A program made the position numbers and the translations under genes. The notes under the pieces are model-generated. The model was not told the DNA's origin and ran no database searches. It was given only the letters and a program-made list of their open reading frames with translations. Source: Candidatus Desulfofervidaceae bacterium (GTDB lineage Bacteria; Desulfobacterota; Desulfofervidia; Desulfofervidales; Desulfofervidaceae). Taken from it: a stretch of 64,000 nucleotides of DNA. Location: assembly GCA_027064585.1 (NCBI GenBank), contig JAMOPI010000010.1, forward strand, positions 62,001 to 126,000, in the 5' to 3' direction. Positions 3,161-37,479 of this stretch are shown piece after piece; positions within the stretch are counted from its first letter, which is position 1, and the number at the start of each line of letters is the position of its first letter.

Positions 3161-3731
3161 GGCAAAAGATACCCTTTAACTCTTTTAATTCTTGCCGCAC
3201 GATTTGCCGTCCTTCTTTGCCCATAGAGAGGAGACGAATGTGGTAAAGTAGCCGAATAAAGAATTGTTTGGGCTCCTCATGTTCCATCATACAAAACCGT
3301 CCGCCAGGCTTTAAGCAGCGCTTTATTTCCTGAAGGGCCTGGCGGCGTGTTTCCCCATTAAGCTCATACATGGCGTGAGAACAGGTAACAACAGCAAAAA
3401 TATCGCTTTTAAAGGGTAAGGCTCCAGCATCAGCAGCAACAAAGACTAAATTTTTTAATCCCCTTTGCCTTGCCTTTTCCTTCGCTTTTTTAAGCATTCC
3501 TAAAGAGAAATCTAAACCTACCACTAATCCCTTAGGGGCATATTCGGTCAACACAATGGCTAAGGATCCCGTGCCGGTGCAAAGGTCTAAGACCTTATCC
3601 TCTGATTTTACCCCACTCCTTTTGGCCAAATAATGCCTTAAAAAAAGGCGATTGTCTTTAGAATGGAGTTTAATAACCCAATCATAAAAATGGGAAAAAA
3701 GATCATAGTATTTTTGTCTGTAACGCCGCAT
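3096..3731 (-). CDS. Class I SAM-dependent methyltransferase (UbiE-like)
   Basis: Protein of 211 residues with a classic Rossmann methyltransferase core: motif I VLDLCTGTGSLAIVL (about 45-60), an acidic residue in VVGLDFSLGML, motif II-like VAADAGALPF, and the post-motif segment LKPGGRFCMMEHEEP. This resembles the UbiE/COQ5 group that methylates quinone precursors, but short orphan members act on many small molecules, so the substrate is open. The 3' end overlaps the exonuclease gene by 65 nt, suggesting co-transcription. It starts with ATG after a purine-rich AGGGAGG sequence. Confidence 0.8.
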   Translation of the reverse strand: MRRYRQKYYDLFSHFYDWVIKLHSKDNRLFLRHYLAKRSGVKSEDKVLDLCTGTGSLAIVLTEYAPKGLVVGLDFSLGMLKKAKEKARQRGLKNLVFVAADAGALPFKSDIFAVVTCSHAMYELNGETRRQALQEIKRCLKPGGRFCMMEHEEPKQFFIRLLYHIRLLSMGKEGRQIVRQELKELKGIFCHVFKEVTASGKTKLICGEKAG

Positions 3732-22218: not shown

Positions 22219-22267
22219 TGGTGCCCCGAGACGATTCGAACGTCCGACCTAGGGATTAGGAATCCCT
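22219..22267 (-). repeat. Partial tRNA-Arg 3' end, putative attachment-site copy
   Basis: Forty-nine bases match the 3' part of the intact tRNA-Arg(CCT) at 24535-24584, from the anticodon stem to CCA, with one missing G in the acceptor region. The sequence upstream of the anticodon stem does not fold as a tRNA. It lies in the opposite orientation to the intact gene, while attachment sites flanking an island are normally direct repeats. Confidence 0.8.
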
Positions 22268-24507: not shown

Positions 24508-24584
24508 GCCCCCGTAGCTCAGGAGGATAGAGCGAGGGATTCCTAATCCCTAGGTCGGACGTTCGAATCGTCTCGGGGGCACCA
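24508..24584 (+). tRNA. tRNA-Arg (anticodon CCT)
   Basis: A full cloverleaf can be folded: acceptor GCCCCCG/CGGGGGC, anticodon loop TTCCTAA giving CCT between AGGGA and TCCCT, T loop GTTCGAATC and an encoded CCA end. It reads AGG codons. tRNA genes of this kind are frequent integration targets; its last 50 bases recur in inverted orientation at 22219-22267. Confidence 0.95.
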
Positions 24585-26806: not shown

Positions 26807-26999
26807 ATAAGGTATGATATACCAAAAGAGAATAAAAGGCAATAAAAAGTATTTGCCCCTGAGGAGAAACAGAGCGGATATATCCGAACTCCACAAAACA
26901 AATCTGTTTTGTTGAGTTTTGACCTTTTTAAGAGGCTTATTCCTGCTATGGTCCATAAACTTACTTTTGCTTATAACTCAAAAGCAATTTGCCATAGCA

Positions 27000-27539
27000 A
27001 TGGCAAAAGAGCTGCCCAAATATTTTTCATGGCCGGAGGTCCAGGCCATACTCGGGGCAGCAAAGGTGGATCCCCAAAAACACCTTTTTTTGAACTTCCT
27101 CTGGCAGACCGGCACCCGGGTAAGTGAGGCGATAGCCATAAGACTTAAGAATGTGGACCTATACGGCAGAGCCATAAGGGTGCCAAACCTAAAGCGCAAA
27201 AAAGGCAGCGCAGAGCGCATAATTCCGATAAAAGACAGCCTGGTAGCCGAAATAAGCACCTATGCCCTTCAAAAACGCTTACAGCCAGAGGACAGACTAT
27301 TTAAATTCAGCCGGTTCAGGGCCTACCAGATAGTCAAAGAAGTCTGCCGCAAGGCTGGGATAACTGATGAACGAGCACATCCACACACTTTCAGGCACAG
27401 CTATGCCATAAACCTGCTTTCCCAGGGCGTGCCGATTATCGTGATGCAGAAGCTGCTTGGCCACAGTAACATCAAAAGCACCCTGATTTACTTGCAAATA
27501 GTCCAGAAAGATGCCAGGAAGTTTGCCGCCTGGGGCTGA
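27000..27539 (+). CDS. Short XerC/D-like tyrosine recombinase
   Basis: A 179-residue protein beginning MAKELPKYFSWPEVQAILGA and consisting of the catalytic domain only: Arg in TGTRVSEAIAIRL, HPHTFRHSYAINL, QKLLGHSNIKST and Tyr in LIYLQIV. The N-terminal SAM-like DNA-binding domain is absent, as in archaeal-type XerA and some integron/plasmid-resolution enzymes. A longer upstream start is possible but runs through a hydrophobic, non-conserved stretch. It may resolve dimers or mobilise the region; it is distinct from the integrase at 22524. Confidence 0.85.
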   Translation: MAKELPKYFSWPEVQAILGAAKVDPQKHLFLNFLWQTGTRVSEAIAIRLKNVDLYGRAIRVPNLKRKKGSAERIIPIKDSLVAEISTYALQKRLQPEDRLFKFSRFRAYQIVKEVCRKAGITDERAHPHTFRHSYAINLLSQGVPIIVMQKLLGHSNIKSTLIYLQIVQKDARKFAAWG

Positions 27540-27584: not shown

Positions 27585-28166
27585 TTAAAAAACATCACAT
27601 TTCTTTCTCTGCTTACACTCCAGGCAATATTTCTCCGCCACTGCCTTATCAATCCATTGCCTCTTTTCCTTGCACCACACATAACCCTGTGTTCTCACCC
27701 GGGGCAGCTCACCGGCCAGACGCCTTTCAAGTCTTTCCAGAATAGGCATTGCTTTTTCTTCTATCATCCTTTCCACTTTTTCTTTTTGGGCCTGGTATTC
27801 TCTTTCAGCCCTTTCTCTGAGGATCCGCTCAAGATCAGGCCGGGCGTGTTTGGCCTGCGGGTTTAGCTTAAAATAAGGACAGCGGGTCACATAAATGGTC
27901 GTAAAAGGATTTTTCTCCTGGAGTGCTTCACGCCTTTGCTCAAGTGCCTGGAAGCAACTACAACAACTAACATTTTTGCAAATGGCACACAGATCCATCA
28001 GGTAATACTTTGAAGTAGCCGATAAAACCACCTGTATTATCTCAAGCTTACCTTCTTTTGTTACTTCAGCCCCGATTTCTTTTGCCCGTCTGGCAAGGTA
28101 AGCTATCAGCTCCTTTTCTTTCCTGTGAAAAGCCGGATCCGGCATATAGTCCGGACAGGAAAGCAC
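27585..28166 (-). CDS. Cysteine-cluster protein of unknown function
   Basis: A 193-residue protein with two cysteine-rich segments, CAICKNVSCCSCFQAL (about 60-75) and CLECKQRKKCDVF at the end, separated by a long charged coiled-coil (about 95-150). There is also a CPYF motif. The pattern suggests zinc or iron-sulfur binding. It lies downstream of an XRE-type protein with a similar C-terminal CDRCTRQSQC cluster (20-bp gap), so the two are likely co-transcribed. I do not recognise the family. Confidence 0.65.
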   Translation of the reverse strand: MLSCPDYMPDPAFHRKEKELIAYLARRAKEIGAEVTKEGKLEIIQVVLSATSKYYLMDLCAICKNVSCCSCFQALEQRREALQEKNPFTTIYVTRCPYFKLNPQAKHARPDLERILRERAEREYQAQKEKVERMIEEKAMPILERLERRLAGELPRVRTQGYVWCKEKRQWIDKAVAEKYCLECKQRKKCDVF

Positions 28167-28185
28167 AAAGTAGTCAGTATTGGGA

Positions 28186-28695
28186 TCATTCTAGGGCATT
28201 TCTCTTTTTAACCACATCCTTTCTGTATCTCTCGCATTGAGATTGCCTGGTGCACCTATCGCATAGAGAGATAAAACCCATGTGGCTGACCACCCCAACA
28301 GCGGCCTGAAAAGTAGCCCTGAGACCTTGACACCAAACAGGTCTCAGACCTTCATTTTTTGGTTCACCCTGCCTGATTTTAATATTGGTTTTAAGGGAAT
28401 TTACAGAGGCGTCTGGTTCACCATGACCCTCAAACACGACTGATGTATCGTCTTTTCGGAAGACGCCCTGAAAAGGTGAACCAGGCTGACTCTGGAACTG
28501 CCCGAAATTACGCCTTAAAATGGCTTTAAGCTTATTTTTTGAAATTTGCTTTTTACCTGCTTCAGCGTATTTATAAAACCTCGGACTCACTCCCAGCATT
28601 TCCGCCATGTCTTTTTGAGTTACATGGCTACCCGTGGCCCAGCCCAGAAACTGCCTGAAGGCCTTAAGCTCCTGACCTGACAATTGATTGCTCAT
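28186..28695 (-). CDS. XRE-like regulator with C-terminal cysteine cluster
   Basis: A 169-residue protein with an N-terminal helix-turn-helix (about 5-55: FRQFLGWATGSHVTQKDMAE, MLGVSPRFYKYAEAGKK), a low-complexity middle and a C-terminal CDRCTRQSQCERYRK cluster. It probably represses or activates genes of the accessory region. The clusters of GTGACGG repeats lie about 200 bp upstream of its start and could be its operators. Confidence 0.7.
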   Translation of the reverse strand: MSNQLSGQELKAFRQFLGWATGSHVTQKDMAEMLGVSPRFYKYAEAGKKQISKNKLKAILRRNFGQFQSQPGSPFQGVFRKDDTSVVFEGHGEPDASVNSLKTNIKIRQGEPKNEGLRPVWCQGLRATFQAAVGVVSHMGFISLCDRCTRQSQCERYRKDVVKKRNALE

Positions 28696-28859
28696 GGTCC
28701 GCCTCCTTAGAAATTTTCTCCCTCTATTGGTTAATAGTGCAAAAGGAAGGAAGGTAGGCGGGCTGAATTGGTTGTTGACTTTTTACGCCAGACAGCTGTC
28801 AAACAAAATCACTTGCACAAAATCACTTGCACAAGACGCCTCTGGAGTAAGGAAATTAT

Positions 28860-28933
28860 CGTCATTATCATCACCATCGTCACCTTGCTGATTTAATATT
28901 TCTAGAAGGTGACGGTGATGACGGTAGTGACGG
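28860..28933. repeat. Inverted cluster of GTGACGG/GTCAYC units
   Basis: The left arm CGTCATTATCATCACC-ATCGTCACCTT (28860-28885) faces the right arm AAGGTGACGGTGATGACGG plus TAGTGACGG (28906-28933). The last 9-10 bp pair perfectly (GTCACCTT/AAGGTGAC) and the rest loosely. The right arm is itself three direct copies of GTGACGG or GATGACGG. It could be a protein-binding cluster or a replication-type site. Confidence 0.6.
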
Positions 28934-28979
28934 TTTTTCCCCTACCTCTGAGGTCTGTTTAGATAATGAATGTTACTAA

Positions 28980-29040
28980 TTGACAAATTCACTTTTTATG
29001 GATTATATTATTTTTAGCTAAAAAAGCTAAATTAGCTAAA
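28980..29040 (+). promoter_or_regulatory. Promoter and triple operator of the Phd/RelE module
   Basis: TTGACA (28980-28985), 17 bp, TTATAT (29003-29008). Directly after it AGCTAAA occurs at 29016, 29025 and 29034, with 9-bp steps over the expected transcription start. This is the position expected for autorepression by a Phd-type antitoxin. Confidence 0.7.
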
Positions 29041-29059
29041 TGTGTTTTAGGGAAGGGAT

Positions 29060-29326
29060 ATGATTGAAACAACTGCTACAAAAATTAAAAACCGACTTGG
29101 CAGGTATTTAGAACAGGCGCAAAGGGAGCCTGTTTTTATAAAAAAGTCAGGACGCTGGGTGGCAGTAGTGGTTTCTTATGAAGATTATAAACGCCTTACA
29201 CGTCTGGAGGACAAGTACTGGGCTGAAAAAGCTTTAGAGGCGGAAAAAGAGGGATTTGTAGGAGAAAAGGAATCTCTGGAGTTTCTTAAAAACAAGTTAG
29301 AAGAAGCTGTGGATGCTGAAGCTTGA
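29060..29326 (+). CDS. Phd/YefM-family antitoxin
   Basis: An 88-residue protein. The N-terminal Phd/YefM fold (ATKIKNRLGRYLEQAQREPV, FIKKSGRWVAVVVSYEDYKR) binds DNA; the acidic C-terminal tail would neutralise the toxin. ATG follows GGGAAGGGAT. It overlaps the toxin gene by 14 nt. A promoter with three AGCTAAA repeats suggests autoregulation. Confidence 0.9.
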   Translation: MIETTATKIKNRLGRYLEQAQREPVFIKKSGRWVAVVVSYEDYKRLTRLEDKYWAEKALEAEKEGFVGEKESLEFLKNKLEEAVDAEA

Positions 29327-29582
29327 TCTGACCAGGCAGGCCTTACGATTCCTGGATCAACTTCCACCAAAGCAGTTCCGGCAGGTGGCACGCAAAATAT
29401 TCTCGCTCATGAAAGATCCGTTACCTCCTGATTCAATAGAAATGAAAGGATATCCTTTTAGAAGAACGGATATAGGTGAGTATCGGATTGTTTATAGAAT
29501 TGAAGGTGATTGCCTGAAAGTTTCTTTTATCGGGAAAAGAAACGATGACGAGATATATCGGCAGGTTAAGCAGAAAGTTTAA
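29313..29582 (+). CDS. RelE/ParE-family toxin
   Basis: An 89-residue protein of the RelE/StbE type: LTRQALRFLDQLPPKQFRQV, the beta-strand IGEYRIVYRIEGDCLKVSFI and a C-terminal GKRNDDEIY. RelE-type toxins cleave mRNA at the ribosome. It overlaps the antitoxin gene, the typical arrangement. Catalytic basic residues (Arg in EYRIVYR, Lys-Arg in GKRND) are present. Confidence 0.9.
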   Translation: MLKLDLTRQALRFLDQLPPKQFRQVARKIFSLMKDPLPPDSIEMKGYPFRRTDIGEYRIVYRIEGDCLKVSFIGKRNDDEIYRQVKQKV

Positions 29583-29637
29583 AGGCTATGGAGAAGCTTC
29601 CCTGAAACGTAGGGGAGATAACAGGTATAGCCTCCCA

Positions 29638-30273
29638 TTAGTCCAAATCCAACTCATACTCAAAAAAATTTTCCCTATTCCCCGTGTCGCAATGTCGCAA
29701 TCGTTCATTTTCCGCATTATTGCTAAAAAAGTTTGCGACAGGACCATTTGTCGCAGTTTGTCGCATTGTCGCATTTGCATTGTTAGGCAAATCGCTGTGT
29801 TCAATTTGCGACTTTGCGACATTTTGCGACATTGGGGGTTGTCGCAACTTTTTGCCTCCTATATCTGCGTTTTTGTTGTTTGCGACATTGCGACAGCTAG
29901 AATTAAAAAATTTTTTATCTCCGTTGACATGATGACACAAATTGCTTTTTTGCCCATTATTACTGCATTTTTTTGTGTCAGACCCCCTTTGACACAAATG
30001 ACACGATGACACAAATTCCCCTTCCAGGTTGCTTTTGGTTGTGTCATTTGTGTCAGACTGTGTCAGAGACTTTTGACACAAATTTCTTTCGGATTTCTCG
30101 ACGGCTTTATTGTTTTGTGTCATTGTGTCAGGGAAGGTAGAAAAAATTTTTATCTCTTCAGGGTCAGGCAGAATTTGAATGTGTGTTAAATCACTAATTG
30201 CTAGGGCTACTGCCAGGGATAACTGCCAGATAACCATCAAGCTTAAGCAGGGTGCTAAAAAAACAGTCAGCAA
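29638..30273 (-). CDS. Doubtful frame with membrane-like start over the repeat clusters
   Basis: A 211-codon frame stays open across both repeat clusters. Its first 30 residues are hydrophobic (LSLMVIWQLSLAVALAIS) and the frame extends further upstream without ATG through more hydrophobic residues. The rest is Asn/Ser/Cys-rich and dictated by the repeats (CRNVA, MSQNVA). It may be a small membrane protein with a read-through tail, or an accident of the repeats. There is no clear ribosome site. Confidence 0.25.
   Translation of the reverse strand: MLTVFLAPCLSLMVIWQLSLAVALAISDLTHIQILPDPEEIKIFSTFPDTMTQNNKAVEKSERNLCQKSLTQSDTNDTTKSNLEGEFVSSCHLCQRGSDTKKCSNNGQKSNLCHHVNGDKKFFNSSCRNVANNKNADIGGKKLRQPPMSQNVAKSQIEHSDLPNNANATMRQTATNGPVANFFSNNAENERLRHCDTGNRENFFEYELDLD
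29685..29895. repeat. TGTCGCA / TGCGACA repeat cluster
   Basis: About twelve copies of the 7-mer TGTCGCA or its reverse complement in 211 bp: 29685, 29693, 29734, 29749, 29759, 29767, 29815, 29825, 29840, 29881 and 29889, plus a degenerate one near 29807. Steps of 8 and 10 bp recur, with copies in both orientations. It directly adjoins the TGTGTCA cluster. Confidence 0.8.
29933..30130. repeat. TGTGTCA / TGACACA repeat cluster
   Basis: About ten copies of TGTGTCA or its reverse complement in 198 bp: 29933, 29974, 29990, 30007, 30040, 30049, 30059, 30074, 30116 and 30124, plus TGACACG near 29999. Steps of 8-10 bp recur. The architecture is like the neighbouring TGTCGCA cluster but the word differs by two bases (TGTCGCA versus TGTGTCA). 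Confidence 0.8.
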
Positions 30274-30423
30274 ATTAAAGGCCAGGTATATATGCGCATA
30301 AAAATAGACGCTAGAAATAAGCCAGATTAAAATAGTCGGATTTAAAGCTAAGCCTTTTTATCCTTGCCCTTTGAATGGAAATCTGCTAATATATTATATG
30401 ATAATATAAACTAGGAGTATCCT
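30131..30423. other. Gap between the repeat clusters and VapBC
   Basis: I see no supported plus-strand gene. The minus strand holds the hydrophobic upstream extension of the doubtful 29638-30273 frame. The last 40 bp hold the VapB operator-like palindrome. Confidence 0.5.
30390..30408 (+). promoter_or_regulatory. Palindrome upstream of VapBC, likely operator
   Basis: TATATTAT-ATG-ATAATATA, perfect 8-bp arms, 15 bp before the antitoxin ATG and overlapping any -10 box. Ribbon-helix-helix antitoxins usually bind such sites to repress their own operon. Confidence 0.55.
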
Positions 30424-30660
30424 ATGCCTGCCATAAGTCTTTATCTGGAAAAAGAGCTGATATTCAGGTTAAAACGGGAAGCCCAAAAGAGGGGGGTATC
30501 TATTTCTTGCCTGGTCCGTGAAGCATTAGATAAGTATTTTGCAGCCGACAAAAGGGTTATGGCCAGAGAAAGAATTTTTGATTTGCTTAAACAAACACCC
30601 CTGGGAGAATGGGAAGAAGTAGAAAAAGAAAGGGAATTAGCCGATGCCTGTAGGGATTGA
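30424..30660 (+). CDS. Ribbon-helix-helix antitoxin (VapB-like)
   Basis: A 78-residue protein with an N-terminal ribbon-helix-helix: AISLYLEKELIFRLKREAQK, RGVSISCLVREALDKYF. The acidic C-terminus (GEWEEVEKERELADAC) would contact the toxin. AGGAG lies 6 bp upstream. It overlaps the PIN toxin gene by 17 nt. Confidence 0.88.
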   Translation: MPAISLYLEKELIFRLKREAQKRGVSISCLVREALDKYFAADKRVMARERIFDLLKQTPLGEWEEVEKERELADACRD

Positions 30661-31039
30661 CACCGGTTTTTTCTATGCCTTAAAGCAGGCCCACCCCGTA
30701 GCCATACAGGTATGGCAGGAGAAAGAGATCGTTACCTGTGCGCTGGTGCTTTATGAGCTGCAAAAGAAATTGCTTAAAGGAGAGTTTAAGCATTGGCCTG
30801 CTTTTATAGAAAGCCTGAAAGAAGCGGTTACGATTGTAGAAATTAATACAGATATAGCCCTTAAAGCCGCTCATCTTGCACACGGTCTTGGAATGCCAGG
30901 AATAGATGCGCTAATTCTTGCAGCACTGCTTGAAGCCGGTTGCAAGGAGATATATACCACAGACGGCCATTTTGAGCTTTATAAGAAGAAAGGAGTTGAA
31001 ATAATCAATCTGAATAAGTGCTTTCGGGGAACTGCTTGA
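30644..31039 (+). CDS. PIN-domain ribonuclease toxin (VapC-like)
   Basis: A 131-residue PIN domain: first acidic residue in VGIDTGFFYALKQ, a middle Glu in ALVLYELQKKLL, Asp in GMPGIDALILAALLEAG and the last acidic residue in IYTTDGHFELY. These four form the Mg-dependent RNase site of VapC toxins, which cleave tRNA or rRNA. It overlaps the antitoxin gene. Complete and apparently functional. Confidence 0.9.
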   Translation: MPVGIDTGFFYALKQAHPVAIQVWQEKEIVTCALVLYELQKKLLKGEFKHWPAFIESLKEAVTIVEINTDIALKAAHLAHGLGMPGIDALILAALLEAGCKEIYTTDGHFELYKKKGVEIINLNKCFRGTA

Positions 31040-31053
31040 GGTCATTAAAATCC

Positions 31054-31082
31054 TTGACTTTTTGTTCCTTTGCTGTTAACTT
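31054..31082 (+). promoter_or_regulatory. Promoter-like sequence before the small membrane gene
   Basis: TTGACT, 17 bp, TAACTT, the same two boxes and spacing as at the tRNA-Arg promoter, 55 bp before the ATG at 31137. Confidence 0.5.
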
Positions 31083-31136
31083 AACATTAGGGAGTTAAGA
31101 AGTTTCTCCTGCTCAGGTAGGGAAAGGAGTACAGCC

Positions 31137-31399
31137 ATGAAAAAAGCAGCCATTCTTTACTGCATGTTTTTAGGCTTCTACATGCTTGTACCTGGATTGT
31201 CTCTGGGTGTCAGATTGCTCGACCTATACCTCTGGTAGCATTCGGTCTGCCTGTGTGGATGGGGCTGGAGAAGGTGAGCGATAAGGTGGCTGAGCATGTC
31301 AGGCCGTTGACGGAGGAAGAGAAGGAAAATTTGGATGAAGATGATTATTGGTGGGATGTTGCTGATCCCGCTAGCCCTCTTTACGAATCCGAAAATTAA
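31137..31399 (+). pseudogene. Small membrane protein with one frameshift
   Basis: Starts MKKAAILYCMFLGFYMLVPG after GGAAAGGAG and carries a signal-like membrane segment. The frame ends early, but a shift near 31205 continues as RPIPLVAFGLPVWMGLEKVS and EEEKENLDEDDYWWDVADPA to 31399, directly before a terminator. I do not recognise it. The good ribosome site, promoter and terminator suggest a recently intact gene. Confidence 0.5.
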
Positions 31400-31435
31400 A
31401 AAAAATTAAAATTAAATGCTATTAAAGAGCATTAT

Positions 31436-31463
31436 CGGGCCCGAAATCCGGGCCCGTTTTTTT
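31436..31463 (+). terminator. Rho-independent terminator
   Basis: Stem CGGGCCCG / CGGGCCCG with loop AAATC, then seven T. It serves the small membrane gene that ends 37 bp upstream. Confidence 0.88.
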
Positions 31464-31668
31464 ATTTCTTCCCCGCCTCTTCTAACTGCTTCACGGCCTC
31501 GCTGTGAGGAGCATCTTCATTGGGAAATCTGCTGGCACCTTCCTTGTAAAGCCTGCCTGCCTCTATCCCTGTTTCAATTCCCTTACCTACTCCTTTAGCT
31601 ACCATTTCTCCTGTTTTGCCTACAACTCCTGCAACAGGACCAACACTTTCAAGATTTTTGTCAATGCT
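31462..31668 (-). pseudogene. 3' fragment of an unknown gene
   Basis: A minus-strand open stretch of about 68 codons without a start: VGPVAGVVGKTGEMVAKGVG, KGIETGIEAGRLYKEGASRF, ending SEAVKQLEEAGKK. It is cut at the 45-bp palindrome at 31669. The Gly/Val repeat pattern resembles glycine-rich amphipathic or colicin-like segments, but the family is not recognised. Confidence 0.4.
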
Positions 31669-31713
31669 GGGAGTATATTTAATTCATTCAGACACAGAAT
31701 TAAATATACTCCC
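31669..31713. repeat. Perfect 17-bp inverted repeat with 11-nt loop
   Basis: GGGAGTATATTTAATTC (31669-31685) is followed by 11 bases and its exact complement GAATTAAATATACTCCC (31697-31713). It interrupts the gene fragment at 31462-31668, so it is probably the remnant or shortest form of a transposable element. No T-run follows, so it is not a terminator. Confidence 0.8.
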
Positions 31714-31854
31714 CTCGCCACGGCTATGCAGGGAAAACGGTTTATATTCCGACGGCTAACAAAAGAAGGGAAGATATAAAGAAGAAAATTTTAAAATTGG
31801 CCAGAGAAGAATGTGTCCTGCCCCTCATGGGGGCAGGACACTACCTCCTCCATT
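31714..31854 (+). pseudogene. Short 3' gene fragment after the palindrome
   Basis: Plus-strand codons read HGYAGKTVYIPTANKRREDI and KKKILKLAREECVLP to a stop near 31854. The IP--NKRR pattern resembles the C-terminus of Mor/HTH-type phage activators, but the match is too short to name. It overlaps the GTGTCCTGCCCC hairpin. Confidence 0.3.
31813..31841. repeat. Perfect 12-bp hairpin without T-run
   Basis: GTGTCCTGCCCC-TCATG-GGGGCAGGACAC. It lies at the join between the short plus-strand fragment and the minus-strand transposase remnant, so it may be a mobile-element end. Confidence 0.65.
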
Positions 31855-32028
31855 AAGCATGAGCACAAGGGGTAAAACAAAGTCTTTTGGTTTGTAACCT
31901 CTACCCACTTTTGGGCATAGGCAAATATTTATCTGTTCTTTGATTAAGCCTTAATCCATGAAGAAACTCACCAAATAAAACTAAACCTGCTCTGGGAGTG
32001 ATAACTTCGTAAGTCTTCTCTAAAATAC
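31825..32028 (-). pseudogene. N-terminal remnant of an IS1380-like transposase
   Basis: Minus-strand reading gives EVITPRAGLVLFGEFLHGLR, LNQRTDKYLPMPKSG, then after one frameshift RGYKPKDFVLPLVLMLNGGG, the typical N-terminus of IS1380-family transposases. It stops inside the GTGTCCTGCCCC hairpin. No other part of the element is present. Confidence 0.5.
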
Positions 32029-32080
32029 TTTAACTCTTTTTTTGTTTTATTGTTGTTCTTACCCCGGGAGTGTGTTTTTA

Positions 32081-32165
32081 CCTTTTAGGTGAAAGGTATT
32101 TTAAAAAAGTTGTTTTATTATGGCATACTTCCGGGGGTTCTTGGAGGGCAATCACGGATTTTGGG
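32081..32165 (+). mobile_element. Truncated MITE-like element, copy C
   Basis: Matches the right-hand 85 bp of copies A and B, from TTTTAGGTGAAAGG through GGAGGGCAATCACGG to the terminal ATTTTGGG. The left part and left end are missing. Sequence divergence is greater than between A and B. Confidence 0.6.
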
Positions 32166-32276
32166 AAAAGAGTGTATTAGCGCTCTCTCGTTTCTATTTT
32201 GGAGGTTTTCTTTTTGGAGAGACGTTCCTTTCCCTCTTTTTTCAACTTCTGCTTTTGAACACCCTTCCTGACAGAC

Positions 32277-32305
32277 TAGACAAAACCTCAAATTCTGCGC
32301 ATAAT
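32277..32305 (+). promoter_or_regulatory. Promoter of the dinG-like gene
   Basis: TAGACA (32277-32282), 17-bp spacer, CATAAT (32300-32305), 24 bp before the ATG at 32330. Confidence 0.55.
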
Positions 32306-32329
32306 GGGGTTAATTTTAGGTGAGAGAAA

Positions 32330-34222
32330 ATGCTTGCCCGTATTTTTGGACCTAAGGGATTACTGGCGCAAAAACTACCCCAGTTTGAATGGCGGGCCAC
32401 GCAACTGGAAATGGCCGAAAAGGTAGCCTCTGCCCTTAAAGAAGACCGTCTGCTTATCGTTGAAGCTGGGACCGGCACGGGTAAGACCTTTGCCTACCTT
32501 ATTCCGGCCATTTTAAGCGGCAAAAAAATAGTTATTTCTACAGGGACAAAAAGCCTTCAGGATCAACTATTTCGTAAGGATGTTCCTTTGCTTGAAAGGA
32601 TTTTAGGACAAAAATTGGACGTAGTTTATCTTAAAGGTCGTCGTAATTACCTTTGTCTTTGGCGATGGCAGGAGATACAAAGAGGAAGGCTGAATTTACC
32701 TCCTTCAACCGAGATAAAGCTTATTTCATCCTGGCTTAAAGAAACAGAAACCGGCGACATTGCTGAGGCACCTGTTTCACCAGAGTGGCCTGGCTGGGCC
32801 AATTTTACAGCCAGCACTGAGCAATGTTTAGGCCAGAAGTGTCCCTTTTGGCGGGAGTGCTTTATTAGTAAAATACGCCTTAAGGCGCAAAAGGCATTAT
32901 TAATTGTTGTTAATCATCACCTCTTTATGGCTGACTTGGCTATAAAAGAAAGGGGACACGGCTGGGTTATTCCTCCCTATGAAGCCGTTATTTTTGATGA
33001 GGCCCATCAGTTAGAAGAAGTCGTCAGCGAATATTTTGGCGTAGAGGTAAGTAATCTGCGTATCAAAGAGTTGCTACGAGACATAAAGTCTTTTTTAGAA
33101 CAACCCTTTCCTCCAGAATTAAACAAGGCCATGCAGCAGACATATTTGCAAAATGAGGCATTTTTTAAAACATTTGTAACTATTAAAGGCAGGGTAAGTT
33201 TAAGGCAGATCTTTACCCCCGTCGTTTTAGAAACAAGGGTGCAGGCCTTACAGGATAAGCTTTCTCACCTGTTAGAACTTATCCATAAGTGTAAGATGTC
33301 AGAGGAGGTAAAAGACAATCTAGAACAACGCATAAAGGTGATAAAGACGGATCTCAAATTTACCTGTGCCATGGATAAACCTGATTATGCCTATTGGGCC
33401 GAGAAGCGCAAGCGCAGTGTTGCCATTGGCTGTTCCCCTATACGCGCAGACTTAATCCTTAGGAAAGTTCTTTATCCTAAGGTTAGAAGCATCATCTTTA
33501 CCTCTGCTACCCTCAATGCCGGCGATGATTTTGGTTTTTTAAAGGCCAGCCTTGGTTTGCCTTCAGATACCGAAGGTGTTACCCTTGCCTCTCCGTTTGA
33601 TTATCAACAGCAGGCCCTTTTATATCTACCCCCATCTATGCCTGATCCTAATGGACCTGATTTTATCAAGGCATCGGCTAAAGAGATTATCAAAATCCTT
33701 TCTTCTTCCCAAGGAAGGGCGTTGGTGTTATTCACTAACATTCAAAATATGAAAGAGGTATATACGCTGGTGCGGCCACAGCTACCTTATAAGATCTTTT
33801 TACAGGGAGAACAATCGCCGCCGCGCCTGTTGGAGATGTTTAAAAAAGATATCCATTCTGTGCTTTTTGCCACGGCCAGTTTTTGGGAAGGAATAGATGT
33901 GCCAGGTGAGACCCTAAGTTGTGTAATTATTGACCGTTTACCCTTTTCTGTTCCAGATGATCCCTTGGTGCAGGCCAAAACCGAAGTATTAAAGGCTCAA
34001 GGCAAAAGTCCCTTTTGGTGCTACCAGGTGCCGCAGGCCATCATCAGCCTTAAACAAGGGCTGGGACGACTCATTCGGCACCGTCAGGATAGAGGCGTGC
34101 TGGCCATCCTGGATCCCCGCTTGTACACAAAGAGCTATGGTCACCGTTTTTTACAGAACTTACCCTCTTGCAAAATTACTAAGGATATAAAGGATGTGGA
34201 GAAATTTTTTAAGCAAGTTTAA
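32330..34222 (+). CDS. DinG/XPD-family iron-sulfur DNA helicase
   Basis: A 630-residue superfamily 2 helicase: Walker A in EAGTGTGKTFAYLIPA (about 47-62), cysteines for a [4Fe-4S] cluster (CLWRW near 104 and CLGQKCPFWREC), DEAH box VIFDEAHQLEE, then ATASFWEGIDVPGETLSCVI and QGLGRLIRHRQDRGVL of the second RecA domain. DinG-type enzymes unwind DNA 5'-3' and resolve R-loops or replication blocks. The N-terminal exonuclease of Gram-positive DinG is absent. ATG follows AGGTGAGAG. It overlaps the PAP2 gene by 29 nt. Confidence 0.92.
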   Translation: MLARIFGPKGLLAQKLPQFEWRATQLEMAEKVASALKEDRLLIVEAGTGTGKTFAYLIPAILSGKKIVISTGTKSLQDQLFRKDVPLLERILGQKLDVVYLKGRRNYLCLWRWQEIQRGRLNLPPSTEIKLISSWLKETETGDIAEAPVSPEWPGWANFTASTEQCLGQKCPFWRECFISKIRLKAQKALLIVVNHHLFMADLAIKERGHGWVIPPYEAVIFDEAHQLEEVVSEYFGVEVSNLRIKELLRDIKSFLEQPFPPELNKAMQQTYLQNEAFFKTFVTIKGRVSLRQIFTPVVLETRVQALQDKLSHLLELIHKCKMSEEVKDNLEQRIKVIKTDLKFTCAMDKPDYAYWAEKRKRSVAIGCSPIRADLILRKVLYPKVRSIIFTSATLNAGDDFGFLKASLGLPSDTEGVTLASPFDYQQQALLYLPPSMPDPNGPDFIKASAKEIIKILSSSQGRALVLFTNIQNMKEVYTLVRPQLPYKIFLQGEQSPPRLLEMFKKDIHSVLFATASFWEGIDVPGETLSCVIIDRLPFSVPDDPLVQAKTEVLKAQGKSPFWCYQVPQAIISLKQGLGRLIRHRQDRGVLAILDPRLYTKSYGHRFLQNLPSCKITKDIKDVEKFFKQV

Positions 34223-36141: not shown

Positions 36142-37479
36142 TTATCCATTCAGATTTTCTTGGATCTTTCTTGTCCATTTCGCGAAGATAGGTTTAAAGG
36201 CATGCTTACGTTTACCGGCCATTCCTCCTATCCATACCTGACATCCTTTTTCGCAAGGCTCAAGCCTTATCCACAATCTTTGGGGAATGATAAAAAAGCT
36301 AACCATCAATCCCCCAATTAACACTAAACAACCCAACCAAACAACCCACCTTCCAGGATCCTTTCTTACTTCTATGCCTGTATACCGGGTAAAGTCTTTC
36401 ACCACAAATACATATTTATCCTTGCGGTGCATGGCGTCAAATTCAGGAAAGTTGCTTAAGAGGATAATTTCTTCTTTCTTTTTTTGGTTGGGGCGGGTTA
36501 AAATCAGCAAAAAGGCAGGTCCAAGATTGCGAAAATCACTCGTGGCATTAACCAGTTTTATTGTACCTAAATTATGGGGAAGAGACACTTCTCTGTTAAA
36601 CGGTACCGTCACATAGAATTTTTTACCTATATTCCGTTCTATAATTTCTAAATGAATGGTGGGATTAGAGGCGACACCAAAATTAGCCTGATAAAAGCGA
36701 TAGCCCTTATAATCCAAAGGCGAATTGACTTTAATGGTGGTTTTAAATCTTTTGTTTCGATCAATGAGGGTAATATAAGAACAATATTCTTTGGGTATTC
36801 CATTTTGATAGTATTTCACTACAAACTTATCACACTTAAGACTAAAAGGCAGATTGTATAACTGATGGTGCCTTCTTCCTTCTAAAAAGACAGTATTACT
36901 TCTTTCTCCCTCTGCAATGAACATCATGCCTGAAAAACCAAAAATAGAACTGATTAAGGCACCGATAAGGACAATTAAAATGCCGGCATGGATAATGTAA
37001 GGGCCTAAATAGCTGATATGACCTTTCTTAAGGTGAAAGGTAAGTCCTAGATTGTCTTCTACCGTTGATAATTCTCCATGTTCCTTTTTTAGCACGCCCA
37101 AGAGTTTTTCTTTGGCTTCCTTTAGCGATAATCTGGTCGTGCAATGTGTGGTCAAAGGCAAATGCTCAAAGAATGTTTTATCAATAACCTTTTTTTCTAA
37201 GCGGTATAACCTCCAGGTTTTGGGCCATCTCTCTAGGGAACAGACGATGAGGTTGATAGAGAAAAGGACTAGAAGGAATTGAAACCAAGAACAATGGTAG
37301 ATGTCGTAAAGACTTAATGCATTTATCAATTTAGCGCCTACACTGCCAAATGCATGCGTATATACTTGGGGCGGTTCATTTTGAGGCAAAAGTGTACCAA
37401 TGGTACAAGCAATAGCTAAAAAAATTAGTAAAAAAATAGTAAGTTTTACTGATTTAAAAAAGGTCAAAACTTTTTTCAT
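36142..37479 (-). CDS. Cytochrome c biogenesis protein Ccs1/ResB
   Basis: A 445-residue membrane protein with N-terminal segments (LTIFLLIFLAIACTIGTLLP; FQFLLVLFSINLIVC), a third at YIIHAGILIVLIGALISSIF, a large periplasmic domain and a fourth segment VWLGCLVLIGGLMVSFFIIP. This is the ResB/Ccs1 layout. With CcsA (52166) it forms the System II heme export and ligation machine needed for DsrJ. ATG at 37479 follows AGAGAAG; a GTG 6 nt upstream is possible. It lies 22 bp upstream of leuB. Confidence 0.9.
   Translation of the reverse strand: MKKVLTFFKSVKLTIFLLIFLAIACTIGTLLPQNEPPQVYTHAFGSVGAKLINALSLYDIYHCSWFQFLLVLFSINLIVCSLERWPKTWRLYRLEKKVIDKTFFEHLPLTTHCTTRLSLKEAKEKLLGVLKKEHGELSTVEDNLGLTFHLKKGHISYLGPYIIHAGILIVLIGALISSIFGFSGMMFIAEGERSNTVFLEGRRHHQLYNLPFSLKCDKFVVKYYQNGIPKEYCSYITLIDRNKRFKTTIKVNSPLDYKGYRFYQANFGVASNPTIHLEIIERNIGKKFYVTVPFNREVSLPHNLGTIKLVNATSDFRNLGPAFLLILTRPNQKKKEEIILLSNFPEFDAMHRKDKYVFVVKDFTRYTGIEVRKDPGRWVVWLGCLVLIGGLMVSFFIIPQRLWIRLEPCEKGCQVWIGGMAGKRKHAFKPIFAKWTRKIQENLNG

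Follow-up and report, generated by a model that had tools for sequence, protein, structure and literature searches.

Two adjacent blocks of short repeats in a 64,000-nucleotide stretch of a Candidatus Desulfofervidaceae genome (hereafter the window) are probably initiator-binding iteron arrays of the replication-origin type, each carrying twelve heptamer sites in a mirror-symmetric layout. To our knowledge, replication origins are unknown for most uncultured phages and integrative elements. Short heptamer arrays of mixed orientation and recurring geometry are found at the edges of diverse primase/helicase genes, and such arrays can therefore be regarded as candidate origins whose initiator specificities may be readable from sequence. 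The window provides an unusual case, in which two arrays with different words and the same layout are found in a toxin-antitoxin (TA)/defence-type island that contains no initiator.

The repeats had been reported in a preliminary description of the window as about twelve copies of TGTCGCA and ten of TGTGTCA, and the clusters are both real and stronger than this implied, with 12 sites in each block (11 and 10 exact, respectively; Table 1). Block 1 contains 11 of the 12 TGTCGCA copies of the entire window plus a site with one mismatch at 29807, whereas 2.6 copies are expected in the window and the maximum over 100 shuffles was eight. Ten of the 12 TGTGTCA copies of the window lie within 29933–30130, and the two imperfect sites of block 2 are TGACACG at 29999, with one mismatch, and the degenerate TGACATG at 29925. 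When the region was dinucleotide-shuffled (n = 2000), no 7-mer exceeded six copies. The two clusters do not mix, as had been stated, either in a word search or in a reading of positions 28000–32500. The 8–10 bp steps described previously apply inside the clusters of sites, between which the distances are 15, 33–40, and 41–42 bp.

A feature absent from the preliminary description is the mirror symmetry of each block. Written with TGACACA as the block 2 word, both blocks have the orientation order ++ − +++ −−− + −−. The spacing in block 1 is 8, 41, 15, 10, and 8 bp, 40 bp across the axis, and then 8, 10, 15, 41, and 8 bp; in block 2 it is 8, 41, 16, 9, and 8 bp, 33 bp across the axis, and then 9, 10, 15, 42, and 8 bp. 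All six mirror pairs of block 1 are base-exact (axis offsets 0, 0, 0, 0, 0, and 0 bp) and the six of block 2 agree within 2 bp (offsets 0, 0, −1, 0, −1, and −2 bp); shuffling of gaps and orientations gave six mirrored pairs at a tolerance of 1 bp in 0 of 2000 trials for either block. Between block 1 and block 2 all sites switch together (T3 to A, G5 to A) with the spacing kept, and the spacers themselves are largely unlike. Such a concerted change of word with retained spacing is the trace expected of two related DNA-binding proteins that each own one block, and this part of the earlier proposal therefore fits the data. The AT content of the block centres is no more than moderate (64 and 54%), and the tract between the blocks that contains A6T6 is about 76% AT by count.

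Table 1. Coordinates of the arrays and neighbouring features in the window, and the genes found beside viral arrays.
Feature	Position	Strand	Details
Block 1	29685–29895	.	12 TGTCGCA sites, 11 exact; mirror axis at 29790
Block 1 sites, left half	29685+, 29693+, 29734−, 29749+, 29759+, 29767+		
Block 1 sites, right half	29807−, 29815−, 29825−, 29840+, 29881−, 29889−		29807 is AGTCGCA
Block 2	29925–30130	.	12 TGACACA/TGTGTCA sites, 10 exact
Block 2 sites, left half	29925+, 29933+, 29974−, 29990+, 29999+, 30007+		29925 is TGACATG; 29999 is TGACACG
Block 2 sites, right half	30040−, 30049−, 30059−, 30074+, 30116−, 30124−		
AT-rich repeat R, between blocks	29905–29921	.	AAAAAATTTTTTATCTC; reverse complement GAGATAAAAAATTTTTT; once at the same junction in G004
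R, second copy, outer edge of block 2	30141–30156	.	AAAAAATTTTTATCTC
Degenerate R-like tract, outer edge of block 1	29659–29673	.	CTCAAAAAAATTTT
211-aa open frame spanning both blocks	29638–30273	−	Judged not to be a conserved gene
Third array, (−) sites	28858, 28867, 28876	−	TGACGAT/TGATGAT/TGACGAT; 9-bp steps
Third array, (+) sites	28910, 28919, 28928	+	TGACGGT; 9-bp steps
Phd/YefM antitoxin, flanking module	29060–29326	+	
RelE/ParE toxin, flanking module	29313–29582	+	
CopG/RHH antitoxin (VapB-like), flanking module	30424–30660	+	
PIN toxin (VapC-like), flanking module	30644–31039	+	
Tyrosine integrase of the element	26919–27539	+	G004 protein 94% identical
tRNA-Arg, presumed integration target	24508–24584	+	Its 3' part ends the G004 element/contig
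Genes beside viral arrays L082, L096, L104			DUF3987
Genes beside viral arrays L118, L081, L078, L092, L098			AAA_25, most with Prim-Pol and/or PriCT_1
Gene beside viral array L117			PriCT_2 + AAA_25
Gene beside viral array L095			BT4734 + sub-threshold DUF5906
Genes beside viral arrays L094, L307			VapE-like
Gene beside viral array L121			D5_N/DUF5906
Genes beside viral arrays L280, L316			DUF5906
Genes beside arrays of L059 and Streptomyces phage Keanu			Prim-Pol + PriCT_1
Gene beside viral array L077			AAA_25

The same words recur in viral genomes. Scans of IMG/VR for a tandem pair, a gap, and an inverted site were made by word, and arrays with other words (such as those of the Desulfofervidaceae genome G001, described below, and phage Keanu) fall outside the counts. 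With a narrow gap, TGACACA returned 11 contigs, all in clusters, and its reversed word none; the sole find of the first scan of this kind was rejected as a chance match in a tape-measure-like gene. With a wide gap, 55 contigs were recovered for TGTCGCA, 69 for TGACACA, and at least 120 for TGGCACA, compared with four contigs of 3–4 sites each for the composition control, the reversed word ACGCTGT. Seven to 13 sites within 320 bp are present in 41 of the 54 new TGTCGCA contigs (control maximum, four), and clustering by sequence yields 44 independent arrays versus four for the control. Locus L107, a three-site match within a coding gene, was discarded as chance. One viral TGACACA array (L299) is exactly mirrored, with spacings of 11, 22, 44, and 9 bp, 120 bp across the axis, and 9, 44, 22, and 11 bp, and a half-unit of another (L311), +(9)+(9)+ 43 − 24 +(10)+(9)+, closely resembles an arm of the window blocks. 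The exact 12-site layout is absent from all viral arrays found, the overlap of the rigid layout of block 1 with individual phage arrays is marginal and no match is claimed, and no phage or plasmid record matched the blocks directly at the DNA level.

The blocks had been described as far from any replication gene, which is true locally, but both words recur beside primase/helicase genes in the viral arrays. The large genes first tested beside arrays were replicative primase/helicases in 11 of 11 cases, representing the Prim-Pol, PriCT, DUF3987, AAA_25, VapE-like, and BT4734/DUF5906 families, and replication genes also predominate among the large neighbours as a whole (Table 1). Array and gene are separated by 1–50 bp in most cases and by about 470 bp in the L078/L092 cluster; among the genes tested later, the gaps are 14 and 44 bp (DUF5906), 134 bp (D5_N), and 15 bp (AAA_25), and a VapE gene overlaps its array. 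Several arrays begin at the stop codon of the gene; in L082 the first site shares bases with the stop codon of the primase, and the sites form two sets with an AT-rich stretch in between. The identical heptamer TGTCGCA is found beside primases with unrelated C-terminal domains (DUF3987, AAA_25, and BT4734 types), such that its reader may not be the C-terminus of the adjoining primase. Keanu carries two GGTAACA-type arrays 42 kb apart, at 36571–36789 (L072) and 78723–79022 (L073 37723–38022), which are alike in site order and one of which directly follows the primase/polymerase/helicase gene.

SaPI Rep helicases recognise, via their C-terminal domain, iterons located directly downstream of their own gene, and the C-terminal domain of Cch2 binds short repeats downstream of its gene at the putative SCCmec origin (PMC7581432). 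For DUF3987 and VirE domains, a role as replication helicases of mobile elements has been predicted, with C-terminal winged helices that possibly read the origin (PMC5862659). In common with SaPI origins (SaPIbov1, DUF927-type; SaPI5, D5/Primase_Cterm-type), the window blocks consist of multiple short iterons, in both orientations (12 + 12), arranged in symmetric sets. The iteron layout of the SaPIbov1 origin is likewise said to be symmetric. The blocks differ from SaPI origins in having no adjoining initiator, in forming two arrays with different words, in their base-exact symmetry, and in centres that are not clearly AT-rich. SCCmec Cch and Cch2 are self-loading helicases of the same two families; however, Cch2 binds three 5-bp direct repeats, whereas the window has 12 heptamers per block in both orientations. 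The viral primase-linked arrays (L082, L118, L095, L117, L104, L059, L280, and Keanu) mostly use the same words, TGTCGCA and TGACACA, and resemble the blocks in their mixed orientation, tandem pairs 8–11 bp apart, and an inverted site about 41–55 bp away; they differ from the blocks in the order of their sites and in lying directly against a primase/helicase gene. The blocks share anatomy and words with SaPI/Cch origins and with the viral arrays, but are not classed with either because no initiator gene adjoins them.

An element whose initiator gene is intact occurs in G001, a genome of the same genus as that of the window, which contains a single DUF927 helicase gene (L320 7222–9640, G001:C19, a span that includes the array). 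The encoded protein matches the HTH_56 model ("Cch helix turn helix domain") below its curated cut-off and is related in sequence to PDB entries 8tch ("Pathogenicity island protein") and 5dgk ("Active helicase"). About 120 bp downstream of the gene are 11 GGTTATCC-type sites in both orientations, set symmetrically around a 60-bp core of 15% GC (85% AT), and the array starts right after GAGAAAAATTTTTA, which resembles R. From its sequence, this locus looks like a textbook SaPI-type origin, with iterons downstream of a helicase and an AT-rich core, in a Desulfofervidaceae element. G001 therefore indicates that Desulfofervidaceae hosts elements that combine a helicase with iterons, and the window element has arrays but no helicase. 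A search for clear DNA homology linking the window element to the G001 integrative and conjugative element (ICE) gave nothing but short TraG-like matches, with E about 0.003 or weaker, and such homology was rejected.

Of the six genomes of the order that were compared, one, G004, has the locus; it belongs to a different genus and has the same VapBC and RelE/Phd modules on either side at 91–96% identity. G004 possesses block 1 (contig L017 2443–2653) and lacks block 2, and the edges of this presence/absence difference are copies of the A6T6 repeat R. The two copies of block 1 differ at 13 positions, of which one is among the 84 site positions (the outermost base) and 12 are among the 127 spacer positions (one-sided Fisher p = 0.011, on 13 substitutions in total); this conservation of the sites argues mildly for a current function. 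In a sample of the phylum (395 genomes) the TGTCGCA pattern was found three times, in the window genome, G004, and one simple-repeat case, so that, for this word at least, such arrays seldom occur in chromosomes; two further genome matches, L028 and L031, look like chance matches in coding sequence. The G004 element also carries, beside its integrase, an AbiL-like pair (L017 6082–7421) consisting of an AAA ATPase that matches AbiLi and RloB/AbiLii. In the window, positions 22219–22259 are an inverted copy of the 3' part of tRNA-Arg (24535–24578), a possible second attachment scar of opposite orientation.

It is the recurrence of the words, the primase/helicase neighbours, the G001 example, the SaPI precedent, the conservation of sites, and the mirrored L299 array that make an origin the probable identity of the blocks; counting against it are the lack of an initiator in the locus or host, the modest AT content of the centres, the unmatched 12-site layout, the use of one word beside primases with unrelated C-terminal domains, and the terminase-linked arrays considered below. 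We infer that the blocks would act as double-stranded binding sites for a self-loading helicase/primase initiator, as in phages, SaPIs, and SCC elements. Bound to the mirror-placed sites, a hexameric initiator could hold the DNA under constraint and melt AT-rich DNA next to it, for which the R tracts beside and between the blocks are candidates, and the separate word of each block would confer its own initiator specificity. The blocks adjoin RelE/Phd and VapBC genes and no initiator gene, and the host genome contains no Prim-Pol, DUF3987, VapE-like, DUF5906, or DUF927 gene, these being the five initiator families searched. The integrative element in which they lie is linked to tRNA-Arg and has TA modules (with the AbiL-like pair in its relative), but no initiator gene. 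If active, its arrays would need an outside initiator, as a parasitic origin or a decoy, and the missing initiator points to either a relic or action in trans.

A serious possibility, if short of probable, is that the blocks are a dead relic: an ancestral ICE or prophage would have used them as its origin and later lost its initiator gene, with TA genes taking its place, so that the stranded blocks have no function today. This reading assigns the blocks the same origin identity and differs in present activity alone. It is consistent with the missing initiator, with the truncation of the window element, which has no direct attR, and with the G001 element, which retains both helicase and array and is tied to the G004 element by weak, short collinear matches at the TraG-like ends (E about 0.003 or weaker). 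Decay should, however, erase sites and their conservation, whereas 23 of the 24 sites are exact or one mismatch off and sites are better conserved than spacers between two genera, albeit on few substitutions. If the arrays are active now, they would act in trans on an initiator supplied by an incoming phage or conjugative element, which they would either use or titrate. More speculatively, an element without an initiator may keep two arrays that are each matched to a different class of phage or plasmid initiator, so that on infection the helicase/primase of an invader is captured and either the replication of the invader is blocked (chromosomal decoy defence) or the borrowed machinery replicates the element (initiator-less satellite). 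Precedent for a decoy role exists in the lambda ori iterons and in phage-encoded resistance (Per-type decoy origins): cloned lambda iterons inhibit initiation of lambda replication in trans (PMC3349717), an inhibition that additionally needs oop transcription. The integrated anti-phage element PLE likewise has iterons of its own (PMC7145576); its satellite origin (RepA_N iterons) is served by a PLE-encoded initiator, RepA, for which no counterpart was seen in the window element. Arrays that did act in trans would constitute a decoy or parasitic origin bank.

The exceptions among the viral arrays suggest an unlikely alternative, in which a phage or satellite would use the array for packaging (pac/cos) or terminase binding, with recruitment of the small terminase subunit. 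In a large marine phage family (L128–L207, L051–L060), a conserved TGGCACA or TGACACA array adjoins the small terminase gene, and a few arrays are near large terminase genes. In complete relatives of this family (HTVC027P, 023Pt_psg01), however, the small terminase gene belongs to the early region and is distant from the gene for the large subunit; most TGTCGCA arrays directly adjoin primase genes, and the window and G004 elements have no phage structural genes. A reading of the blocks as operators for an island regulator, such as the XRE protein (28186–28695) put forward in the preliminary description or an antitoxin, is about as unlikely. The TGCGACA-N8-TGTCGCA arrangement in each arm does resemble a palindromic operator, and XRE and RHH proteins are encoded nearby; but G004 retains block 1 and has no homologue of the XRE gene (several of the genomes are draft MAGs and G004 is 81% complete, so absence of a gene there is weak evidence), 12 sites in 211 bp far from a promoter are excessive, and the phage counterparts lie at the 3' ends of primase genes. 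The XRE protein is accordingly not supported as the binder.

It is improbable that each block is a non-autonomous transposon of 206–211 bp with multiple transposase sites at both ends, as in Tn7/TniA-like elements. Block 1 does start with TGT, end with ACA, and have a perfect 16-bp terminal inverted repeat (TIR), and block 2 is present in the window genome and missing from G004; against this, neither block has a target-site duplication at its edges, the 17-bp R repeats flank the blocks without abutting them, the single locus has no further copy in its own genome, and phage arrays built from these words do not resemble TIRs. A long hairpin of single-stranded DNA or RNA, such as a structure that is processed or takes part in recombination, is equally doubtful: single strands fold much better than shuffles (z = −8.2 and −4.9), but this is guaranteed by the mirrored words, base pairing would not demand 12 like words, and the spacers would form large and mostly unpaired internal loops. 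Rfam matched tRNA alone, with no family at the blocks. The blocks are non-coding, and a minus-strand protein is scarcely credible, for although the 211-aa frame that the preliminary description weighed as a possible conserved gene stays open in the window, it has no Pfam or PHROG family and no tblastn match in phages and plasmids, is interrupted in G004 with substitutions spread 7/6/10 over codon positions, and has sites in every phase.

Other repeats were encountered in the course of the analysis. A third, smaller mirror array is located between the XRE and Phd genes (28858–28934), and in G004 it is shorter and partly diverged (L017 about 3400–3475); two sub-threshold microRNA-type Rfam matches at this array were taken as chance. 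A tandem direct repeat, AAATCACTTGCACA, is found upstream of the XRE gene at about 28800–28830. Three Clostridia loci (L027 7679–7877, L032 4765–4945, and L030 6822–6885) have paired TGCGACA words in a different structure; in L027 and L032 the words come after a GTTAAAAAACA motif, and those of L027 are just downstream of a serine-recombinase-like gene.
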